From Micavibrio sp. (GTDB lineage: Bacteria > Pseudomonadota > Alphaproteobacteria > Micavibrionales > CSBR16-224), in assembly GCA_027047045.1 (NCBI GenBank), contig JALTWL010000301.1:1-33862 (forward strand): a stretch of 33,862 nucleotides of DNA, read 5' to 3'. The translations under genes were made by a program, and so were the position numbers. Position 1 is the stretch's first letter; each line of letters starts with the position of its first letter. Below are positions 1,597-5,917 of the stretch, one piece after another. The notes beneath the pieces were generated by a model. It ran no database searches and was not told the DNA's origin. It saw nothing but the letters and a program-made list of their open reading frames with translations.

Positions 1597-2394
1597 ATGA
1601 ATTTTTTAAAAAATAACAATAAATTACACATTAAAACCATACTAAATTTTTACAAATTTTTTGGAATTTTAGCTTTATTATTTGTGTTTTTTATCTCTTC
1701 TAAAAAAAAAAAAAAAAAAAAAAAACAAATAAATAAAATGGGGCCTCTTTTAACTATCCCATATATTTTACAGGAACAAGAACAAAAAAACACCAATCAA
1801 TTACAGAAAAAAAAGCTTTTAACTTTACCTTTTTATGATACAGATATTACAAATCCGATAAAAAAAACTAATAAAAACGATATTTATTGGGAATATAAAA
1901 AGCCATCTTCAAAGCCCAAATATAAAGTTAAAAATAAATTTATAAACCAACCTAAAAATACTGTGAATAAAATAAATATAAAAAAAGCACCTCTTTTACC
2001 AGTAAAAAAGGTAGAATTACCAGTGCCAGAACTGCCCCCAACTTCTATATTAGAAACTTTTGACAACAAAAATATCAAAAAAGATGAAATTTTAAACAAT
2101 ATTATTTTTGAGAGAAACAGCACTGATATCACACCAAATATTGAAGACAAGCTACAAAAACTTATAAAAAAATTAAATAACAATCCAAATTTAAGGGTAC
2201 AGCTACACGCCTTTGCAACTGGTATAGATGGTAATCTTAGTAGTGCTAGGCGAATATCACTTTCCAGAGCTTTGGCTATTCGTGAATATCTAAAATCAGC
2301 GGGTATTAGAACCACACGTATAGATGTAATGGCATTAGGGGACAACACAGACAAACAGCCAATAGATAGAGTGGATTTTATTTTTATTAAATAA
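1597..2394 (+). CDS. OmpA-family C-terminal domain protein with N-terminal membrane anchor
   Basis: A 265-residue protein. Residues 1-20 are polar and basic, residues 21-35 form one hydrophobic segment, and residues 36-43 are eight lysines encoded by 24 consecutive A. A long Lys/Pro-rich low-complexity stretch (about 44-160) precedes the C-terminal OmpA-like domain (about 165-265). In that domain NIIFERNSTDITP starts the fold, and SSARRISLSRALAIREYL and the closing GDNTDKQPIDRVDF match the peptidoglycan-binding helix and loop. Family knowledge suggests it tethers the envelope to peptidoglycan in the periplasm. It follows the monophosphatase gene by 22 bases. Oddities are the homopolymer and eight lysines directly after the membrane segment, on the side expected to face the periplasm. 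The ribosome-binding site is weak (only AGG near 1590), so the start is moderately certain. Confidence 0.85.
   Translation: MNFLKNNNKLHIKTILNFYKFFGILALLFVFFISSKKKKKKKKQINKMGPLLTIPYILQEQEQKNTNQLQKKKLLTLPFYDTDITNPIKKTNKNDIYWEYKKPSSKPKYKVKNKFINQPKNTVNKINIKKAPLLPVKKVELPVPELPPTSILETFDNKNIKKDEILNNIIFERNSTDITPNIEDKLQKLIKKLNNNPNLRVQLHAFATGIDGNLSSARRISLSRALAIREYLKSAGIRTTRIDVMALGDNTDKQPIDRVDFIFIK
1702..1725 (+). repeat. A24 mononucleotide tract inside the OmpA-family gene
   Basis: Twenty-four uninterrupted A make codons 36-43, all AAA (Lys), in frame between a membrane segment and the rest of the protein. Because the frame is intact on both sides, the count is consistent with a full-length protein. 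Such a run is a strong site for replication or transcription slippage. Confidence 0.97.
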
Positions 2395-3370: not shown

Positions 3371-3781
3371 TTAAATTATATTTTCTATGATTTGACTATT
3401 TAGTTGAGATTTTACAAAAGCGTAATTGGCACCTGCTTTTTTAACTTCTTCAAAAGTTATATTGCCAGCAAGTCCTGTCAATACCACCAGTTTAGTTGCC
3501 CCACATTTTTTCTTCATAGTCCTAACAGAAGACACTCCATAGTCATCGGGTAAATTTAAATCCAGAAATATTATATCAAAATCTTCTTCTTTTATACAAT
3601 TATATGCACAATACATAGTTTCTGCATGTGTTACTAATATGTCATAGTTTTTTATTTGTGATACCAAATCTTTAAATAAAATCACATCTCCTGGATTATC
3701 TTCAACCAGTAAGATTTTTTTTGTAAAATTTGTTGAAAATGAAATATTAAAATGACCTACGTCTTCATAATTATTGCTCAT
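3371..3781 (-). CDS. Single-domain response regulator (second of pair)
   Basis: A stand-alone receiver domain of 136 residues without an output domain. After a 22-residue N-terminal extension come the acidic pair VEDNPGD, the phospho-acceptor aspartate in FLDLNLPD, the conserved Thr in VVLTG and the conserved Lys in AFVKS, so the phosphorylation machinery looks complete. The product stops early in the last helix, making it slightly shorter than typical at the C-terminus. The gap to the preceding receiver gene is 27 bases, with AAGG seven bases before the start. The VEDNPGD and LDLNLPD wording is that of Rcp1-like regulators paired with phytochrome-type kinases. It probably takes phosphate from the kinase at 4274-5917; with no output domain it must act by protein contact or as a phosphate sink. 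Confidence 0.92.
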   Translation of the reverse strand: MSNNYEDVGHFNISFSTNFTKKILLVEDNPGDVILFKDLVSQIKNYDILVTHAETMYCAYNCIKEEDFDIIFLDLNLPDDYGVSSVRTMKKKCGATKLVVLTGLAGNITFEEVKKAGANYAFVKSQLNSQIIENII

Positions 3782-3808
3782 ATCTTTTGCCTTATATATC
3801 TTTAAATA

Positions 3809-4246
3809 TTAAAACTTAGATGGTCTTTCAACCACCCTAAACCAAAATTTTTCTATAGTTTTTACAATATATTCTAATTTGTCTGGATCTGATGGTTTGA
3901 CTATATAGCCACTAACATAATTATCATATGCACAAGAAATATCTTGTTTTGTAGCAGAGCTACTCATAATCAATACAGGTATTTTTTTTAATTTTGGAGT
4001 AGCTTTTATATATTTTAGTATATCATGTCCTTCCATATCAGGTAAATTTAGATCTAACAATACAATATCCGGTGTTGGTGTATTTTCTTTACCATTTTTT
4101 TTATTTAATATGTCCAAAGCCTCAAAGCCATTATTAGCGATTTGTATATTATGCATTAGCTTTAGCGTCTTAAGCGCTGTTATAAATAAAATTACATCTC
4201 CTGGATTATCTTCAATAATCAATATTTCTATTGGTTCTTGTTCCAT
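3809..4246 (-). CDS. Single-domain response regulator, Rcp1-like (first of pair)
   Basis: A 145-residue receiver domain with no DNA-binding output. Seen in order: IIEDNPGDV near the N-terminus, phospho-acceptor in VLLDLNLPDMEGHD, the Ser/Thr switch region in VLIMSSSA, the lysine in YIVKPSDP, and the C-terminal helix ending EKFW. This is the Rcp1 pattern known from cyanobacterial phytochrome partners and many stand-alone kinases. It lies 27 bases after the kinase gene and 27 bases before the next receiver gene. GGAA lies about 6 bases before the ATG. It is likely the main phosphorylation partner of the adjacent kinase. Confidence 0.95.
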   Translation of the reverse strand: MEQEPIEILIIEDNPGDVILFITALKTLKLMHNIQIANNGFEALDILNKKNGKENTPTPDIVLLDLNLPDMEGHDILKYIKATPKLKKIPVLIMSSSATKQDISCAYDNYVSGYIVKPSDPDKLEYIVKTIEKFWFRVVERPSKF

Positions 4247-4273
4247 GTATTTTCCATTATTTAGTGCTTTTAC

Positions 4274-5917
4274 TTAAGCTAGTTTATTATTTAATTTTGG
4301 TATAGTAAATCTAAATATTGCACCTTTGTTAATTTCACCTTCTGCCCATATTTTTCCACCATGAGCATTTACTATCTTTTTACACATAGCAAGCCCAATA
4401 CCTGTGCCTGGATATTTGGCTTGAGTATGCAATCTTTTAAATACTTTAAATATTCTATCTGCTTGGTTGGGGTCAAAGCCAATTCCTCTATCTTCTATAG
4501 TAAATATATATTCGTATTCATTTTCTGTAGCCGATATTTTTATTACTTGCCTTTCATCTGTTTTTATATATTTTAAGGCGTTTCCTATTAAATTTTGAAA
4601 AACTCGCATAATATTTACCTTATTGCCATATATTTTGGGTAATTTAGAAACTTTTATACATGCATTTGTTTCATTTATTTGCTCAGTTAGATTTTTAGTA
4701 ACAATTTCAACTATATCATTACAGTTAAGTAGATCATAACTAACAGCCTCTTGCCCCAATCTAGAGTAAGCAAGTAAATCAACTATCAATTCTTGCATTC
4801 TAACTGCTGCATTGCAGGCATAATCTATATATTCTCTGCCCATATCATCTAACTTATCGTTATAATCGCGTTTTAACAATTTTGTAAAACTAGATACCAT
4901 TCTAAGTGGCTCTTGCAAATCATGTGATGCGGCGTATGCAAATTGCTCTAATTCTTCGTTTGTTTGGTTTAATTTATCTAAAGTTTTTTCTAAGTTATTT
5001 TGTGATTTTTCCAACGATTTATATGTTTTGATATGCAAAAGCACCATTCCTATAAAGGGGATAGCATATGAAAATATTTTCAATATATGGGCAATATAAA
5101 AATCACTGTCATATAGTTCAGTTGAGCCAAATGCCATATGTATTTCTAAAATAATAGATGGTATCACCATAAGTAATATTGCAAAGCTAAGATAATTATT
5201 TAATTTTTTATGCAATGATAAAAAAATAGGAATAGCAAAAATCGATATAATAATCGGTACAATATCAAAAGGTCTAGAAATAACAAAATCAGGATATATT
5301 GCTTGTGGTAAATTTAAATTTATAGACATTAAATAATTAAAAATATAAGCAGCTACTGCAAACAATATACATAGTAATATTATTGTTCTAAATTCATAAT
5401 TATTATTCTTTTTTTTATTTTGGGATTTATTTAAGCTAACCATCGCAAAAACAGCCCCCATAACTAATATAAATATATTAAAAATGCGAGAAACCGCCCA
5501 AGTAACTGCTATAAGTTCACCATTGCCAATAGTAGCTTCTAATATTCGTAACGATGAAAGTGCATTAAGTGCATCTGTTATGCTAGAAAAGAAAAGTGTC
5601 ATGCCTATTATTTGGGTTGTTACTGCTTTAGATATTTTAAAATATGAAAAAGCAAGTATCATACTTACCATAGCAATAATTACAGCTGTCCACTCTAAAA
5701 TACCGTGCAATATTTGGTTTTTCAGTAAAGGAAGTAATGTATCTTCATTTATTTTACCATCATTATATAAATTTATATTTTCCAATGGTGGAGTTTTAAA
5801 ATTAAAATTCACCCCCAATATTTTTAATAAAAATGGTGTCAAAGATATAGCAAATACAGCGATTATAATAACAGTATTATTGGTATAATTTAGTTTATTT
5901 GAAAGTTTAAATTCCAT
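4274..5917 (-). CDS. Membrane sensor histidine kinase with eight-helix N-terminal sensor
   Basis: A 547-residue inner-membrane kinase. Hydropathy by eye gives about eight membrane helices: near residues 14-35, 75-94, 102-118, 136-162, 178-197, 217-235, 243-262 and 274-296. A short coiled coil (about 300-325) follows, then HisKA with AASHDLQEPLRM and the phosphorylated His332, then HATPase_c with N-box NLIGNALKY (442-450), G1 motif DRGIGF (476-481) and G2 motif GTGIGLA (504-510). The DLQEPLR signature fits Rcp1-partnered kinases. The sensor resembles MASE-type integral membrane sensor domains, but I cannot assign the subtype. The gene sits between an AHL-synthase operon start and two receiver genes, so a role in sensing a hydrophobic signal is possible but unproven. 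The ribosome-binding site is weak (AAAAGA). Confidence 0.95.
   Translation of the reverse strand: MEFKLSNKLNYTNNTVIIIAVFAISLTPFLLKILGVNFNFKTPPLENINLYNDGKINEDTLLPLLKNQILHGILEWTAVIIAMVSMILAFSYFKISKAVTTQIIGMTLFFSSITDALNALSSLRILEATIGNGELIAVTWAVSRIFNIFILVMGAVFAMVSLNKSQNKKKNNNYEFRTIILLCILFAVAAYIFNYLMSINLNLPQAIYPDFVISRPFDIVPIIISIFAIPIFLSLHKKLNNYLSFAILLMVIPSIILEIHMAFGSTELYDSDFYIAHILKIFSYAIPFIGMVLLHIKTYKSLEKSQNNLEKTLDKLNQTNEELEQFAYAASHDLQEPLRMVSSFTKLLKRDYNDKLDDMGREYIDYACNAAVRMQELIVDLLAYSRLGQEAVSYDLLNCNDIVEIVTKNLTEQINETNACIKVSKLPKIYGNKVNIMRVFQNLIGNALKYIKTDERQVIKISATENEYEYIFTIEDRGIGFDPNQADRIFKVFKRLHTQAKYPGTGIGLAMCKKIVNAHGGKIWAEGEINKGAIFRFTIPKLNNKLA

Follow-up and report, generated by a model that had tools for sequence, protein, structure and literature searches.

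Coding homopolymers that act as contingency tracts have been described in bacteria, and the accessible text of PMC2831843 gives the poly-A tracts of swrA in B. subtilis and of inlA in L. monocytogenes as examples. At the level of translation, the available part of a second report (PMC4363877) describes the sliding of E. coli ribosomes on eleven consecutive A (A11) in a cell-free system, which leads to a robust truncated product. The window considered here, namely the whole stretch of 33,862 nucleotides of Micavibrio sp. DNA that was analysed, constitutes contig C298 in an assembly that totals 2,171,169 bases over 342 contigs, and it carries 24 consecutive A (A24) within the gene of an OmpA-domain protein. 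Judged from the sequence comparisons, the balance of probability tips slightly towards A24 filling in for sequence left unresolved in the gene of an ordinary exported protein, that is, an assembly flaw rather than a genetic switch. An artefact had been mentioned in the initial annotation only as what would refute slippage, and it is the comparisons with relatives that now make it the leading explanation.

The A24 tract and its host gene

The features concerned are the following:

768 to 1574, + strand: inositol monophosphatase (suhB-like) gene directly upstream (profile match; gene order common to the same-genus genome)
1597 to 2394, + strand: gene of the OmpA-domain protein carrying A24, 265 aa (ORF; Pfam OmpA score 46.7 bits, cut-off 27.2)
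1597 to 1701, + strand: hydrophobic N-terminal segment, probably a signal peptide that lacks the cleavage region (hydropathy; likeness to the same-genus signal peptide ending ...LFINSS)
1702 to 1725, + strand: A24 tract, eight AAA codons, K36-K43 (sequence, ORF)
1726 to 1740, + strand: TAA at 1730-1732 and 1734-1736, which end the two shifted frames, and behind them an in-frame ATG (M48) at 1738-1740 (sequence)
2107 to 2349, + strand: OmpA-like domain (PF00691), residues 171-251 (profile score exceeds the curated threshold; all 21 conserved columns kept)

The run, which is flanked by TCT TCT on the 5' side and by CAA on the 3' side, had been counted and placed exactly by the initial annotation, and its description of eight AAA codons in an OmpA-family gene, adjoining a hydrophobic segment, is borne out by the ORF, the Pfam match and hydropathy. 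In the window, the G+C content of which is 34%, A12 is matched 13 times, all of these overlapping matches lying within A24, against a mean of 0.53 and a maximum of 6 in dinucleotide shuffles, and a first-order model with the window composition predicts about 0.0001 runs of A24 or longer genome-wide. The assembly as a whole contains 103 runs of A9 or longer, four of A12 or longer and a single one of A16 or longer, which is A24 itself; the three remaining runs of at least A12 measure 12-13 and are sited outside any ORF or at an ORF end, and no run intermediate between A13 and A24 was found in this genome. A24 is well past chance and has no companion in its own genome.

The elongation factor P gene is also located upstream of the OmpA-domain gene. 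Within the domain, the window matches all 21 columns in which one residue occupies at least 80% of the 28 other rows (counted without the locus L021), pN/pS against the same-genus relative is 0.36, which is a rough sign of constraint because pS is near saturation, and the remaining 222 codons contain neither a frameshift nor a stop. On these sequence grounds, the gene downstream of A24 is sound rather than decayed. When the domain is aligned to the structure 6top, AT of the window stands opposite AD of the structure, at what we take to be the place of the peptidoglycan-binding aspartate in OmpA/Pal domains; none of the 28 other rows has D at this place, where T, S, A, Q, K or another residue is found instead. 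The OmpA-like domain thus belongs to a divergent subfamily, in which the usual mode of peptidoglycan binding may be absent. A nearly invariant SARRxSLSRAL stretch is shared among its homologs, and elsewhere in the window (3371-5917) two single-domain response regulators adjoin a histidine kinase whose membrane sensor domain is MASE3.

The N-terminus in relatives

Matches to the protein were obtained in 47 of 55 genomes, the own genome counted, and the 49 matches gave 30 loci for use, namely the own locus and 29 others. Three of them (L021, L031 and L034) end before the N-terminus and therefore stand outside the 26 readable N-termini, that of L021 being regained as L152. The frame pattern applied found no frame in the distant match of G004 (L153) nor in L154 and L155, from the G053 and G046 loci, and G005 gave no match to the protein.

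In the same-genus genome G001 (L010, L156; identical to the public record JAJFGX010000038.1), the OmpA-domain gene follows suhB as it does in the window, the suhB match being located at 3312-4115 of L156. The hydrophobic segment ends in ...LFINSS in G001 and in ...FFISS in the window, and past the signal peptide G001 continues with NLYANNSSLNPAFEVNYDVL, a lysine-rich linker and then PLLTAP. The distance from the end of the hydrophobic segment to PLLTxP amounts to 49 residues in G001 versus 14 in the window, which suggests that about 35 residues (about 105 nt) are missing at A24 and that the place, with the eight lysines, would span about 43 codons (about 130 nt). The figure of 35 residues depends on anchoring at the hydrophobic-segment end and at LLTxP; in an unforced global alignment the signal segments are left unaligned, and the window N-terminus slides onto residues 25-60 of the relative. 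The linker of the same-genus protein is lysine- and A-rich at the place corresponding to A24. Two spaced LLTxP motifs are present in the lysine-rich linker of both genus members (L010 1181-1340; window 1726-1830) and absent from the three other same-family proteins read.

Of the 26 N-termini readable across the order, 22 have an EVNxDVL-type motif, and each of the four same-family genomes read (G001, G002, G003 and G006) has it as well; the window protein has neither this motif nor the cleavage region, and the gap falls exactly at A24. Over the 18 residues after the hydrophobic core, the net charge is +9 in the window versus -4 to +1 in the 29 others, apart from one outlier of +3 that reflects a misplaced frame start. 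An AxA-like site after the core was detected in 26 of the 29 others by a crude search, which missed the likely LYA of G001, and the same search found no such small-x-small site in the window, where a weak cleavage site between ISS and K is conceivable. The initial annotation had pointed to tract length in relatives as a check on the run, and they contain nothing similar at this place: the longest A run is A7, in the G001 gene, and the longest homopolymer in the 29 other homologous frames is 9.

These comparisons change how the segment preceding the run is to be read. The membrane helix of the initial annotation stands as a hydrophobic segment but is doubtful as an anchor, being more likely a signal peptide because the hydrophobic segment of the relatives runs into a cleavage region. 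The clash of eight lysines with the positive-inside rule is therefore more likely a symptom of the absence of the cleavage region and the early mature region than a trait of the family, and it speaks for lost sequence, not for an unusual protein.

Competing readings of the run

If the run is indeed an assembly flaw, the real gene would code for an ordinary exported protein of the cell envelope in an alphaproteobacterium of the Micavibrio order: a Sec signal peptide with its signal-peptidase site would be followed by the short, conserved EVNxDVL motif, then by the lysine-rich linker and the OmpA-like domain. Measured on the same-genus relative, A24 would replace or bridge 43 codons (about 130 nt) left unresolved by the assembly, and this stretch would hold the cleavage site and the EVNxDVL motif. 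We infer both the replacement at this A24 and the assembly step behind it. An artefact is preferred because one event suffices for it, where the natural route requires a deletion to coincide with an expansion, and because the downstream domain is intact and other long A tracts behave alike. The conserved block missing at the tract speaks for it, although a natural deletion would look alike, as do the lack of A13-A24 intermediates in the genome and the adapter-derived poly-A present in other assemblies. Several findings count on the opposite side: the frame is open through the tract, which would happen by chance in one case out of three; no second run of A16 or longer exists in the assembly, hence no systematic filler; the A-rich lysine linker of the same-genus relative is a place where a real run could grow; and the window falls short of the relative by about 105 nt, while the length changed by no more than 3 nt in the five replacement tracts.

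Two specific routes to an artefact were tried and rejected. For adapter read-through, the best 16-mer matches in the flanks of A24 reach 10 and 11 of 16, against 9-12 in random 50-mers and 15-16 of 16 in three control tracts. That the genome store turns N into A was rejected for the record L093, whose N27 run, the single N run encountered, kept all 27 N in the whole-genome copy. A search of the own assembly for a stray true N-terminus gave no match to the first 63 residues of the relative, a weak result as it had no positive control, and no second copy of the A24 flanks was found there, the other matches being short and A+T-rich; both outcomes also count against an artefact. The scan of viral contigs with the right flank returned nothing, and the literature search, at the level of its results, returned nothing plainly on poly-A assembly artefacts or N-to-A conversion.

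A real tract is a serious possibility, albeit a tentative one of clearly less than even chance. An in-frame deletion would have taken the cleavage region and the motif, and A-rich lysine codons would have grown to A24 by replication slippage, producing a contingency tract, designed or not, other lengths of which in cells or messages would give stubs of 44-46 aa. The run consists of exactly eight codons in an open frame, and both shifted frames stop at once: a gain or loss of one or two A gives products of 44-46 aa, with a TAA within five codons after every such slip, although two stops so close by are probably unremarkable in A+T-rich DNA. The A-rich lysine stretch at the matching place in the relative and the low G+C content of the window also fit a real tract, as does the tendency, stated in the accessible text of PMC2831843, of longer prokaryotic coding poly-A/T tracts to sit nearer gene 5' ends, the poly-A of swrA and inlA being variable. 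Slippage alone would nevertheless be insufficient because slips lengthen a tract, whereas the window lost a conserved block, so that both a deletion and an expansion are needed at one point. Features kept in all four same-family genomes read would have to be lost, the relatives have no long run at the place (at most A7, in G001), and for none of the 27 other long A tracts was an insertion demonstrated. Slippage is to be expected of a real A24, since E. coli ribosomes slide already on A11 according to the available part of PMC4363877, and the mixture of full and shortened products expected in the initial annotation holds only on the condition that the tract is real.

An unlikely extension is that a real A24 would yield mixed products, namely a membrane-held OmpA-domain protein with a periplasm-facing lysine patch, short signal-K peptides and perhaps a cytosolic form that arises from a restart at M48, and would thus operate as a slippage-set switch of protein location. 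If this were true, most slips would give the short signal-K peptides, the lysine patch would be oversized, the restart at M48 would lie a few bases past two out-of-frame stops, and the whole would occur in a relative of predatory bacteria. M48 is not retained in the same-genus relative, and it is disfavoured as the true start, given that the segment upstream of it resembles the signal peptide of the relative and has the same placement after suhB.

Still more improbable is a gene in decay, that is, an export-defective allele whose A tract is passive and has no regulatory role, perhaps partly rescued by transcriptional slippage as described for insect endosymbionts, for which the missing cleavage region and motif, together with the very high positive charge behind the hydrophobic core, can be adduced, but which is at odds with the full set of conserved columns, the constraint on the domain, rough as its measure is with pS near saturation, and the uninterrupted 222 codons.

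Long A tracts elsewhere and known systems

Runs of A17 or longer occur in 9 of 142 genomes of the order, and runs of A20 or longer in 7 of 398 genomes of a phylum sample, the own genome being included in both counts. All 27 other places with long A were inspected: 3 follow adapter, 6 belong to contig ends or low-complexity debris (L126, L127, L130, L133, L135 and L145), 5 are replacements and 13 were assigned to none of these kinds, and slippage insertion was demonstrated for none of the 27. In the five replacements (L123 and L128 of G046; L136, L138 and L139 of G090), ordinary sequence was exchanged with nearly unchanged length. In G090, the K run of RmlA faces EEKPLE of the solved RmlA in a gapless alignment and that of Der is also gapless across the tract (0 residues' difference in both), and the histidine kinase shows one residue's length difference in a weaker alignment. 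In G046, the T20 and T21 tracts differ by 0 and 2 bases from non-repetitive G053 sequence; for a third G046 tract (L131), the shared domain alone was aligned with G053, and L134, L124 and L121 gave no matches in the solved-structure comparison.

Illumina adapter followed by poly-A is found inside assembled genomes at L137 (G047) and at L143 and L147 (G169). Replacement A/T runs of 17-21 hit partly conserved coding sequence in public genomes, among which G046 is a single contig, and G090 carries seven such tracts, every one A17 or A19.

Should A24 be an artefact, it illustrates that a long homopolymer in a public draft genome can mask an envelope protein's functional N-terminus yet leave a plausible open frame, and isolated A17-A24 coding runs would need checking against relatives before being called switches. 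Should it be real, it would constitute an unusually long coding A tract and allow a direct test of slippage-controlled export.

Compared with the contingency tracts in the accessible text of PMC2831843, the window likewise has poly-A in a gene near its 5' end (codons 36-43 of 265), and its shifted lengths would give short products, but the tracts analysed there measure 5-10 bases, far less than A24; unlike in such systems, the relatives have no such tract and a conserved block is missing beside it. As regards the sliding of E. coli ribosomes, the eight AAA codons exceed the A11 that gave a robust truncated product, although the available part of PMC4363877 concerns reporters, whereas here there is sequence alone and the tract itself is in doubt. 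The window departs from assembly poly-A artefacts in its flank without adapter and in being about 105 nt shorter than the relative, against at most 3 nt in the five replacements, yet it resembles them in that its assembly is fragmented, the long run stands isolated and conserved residues are lost where it lies.
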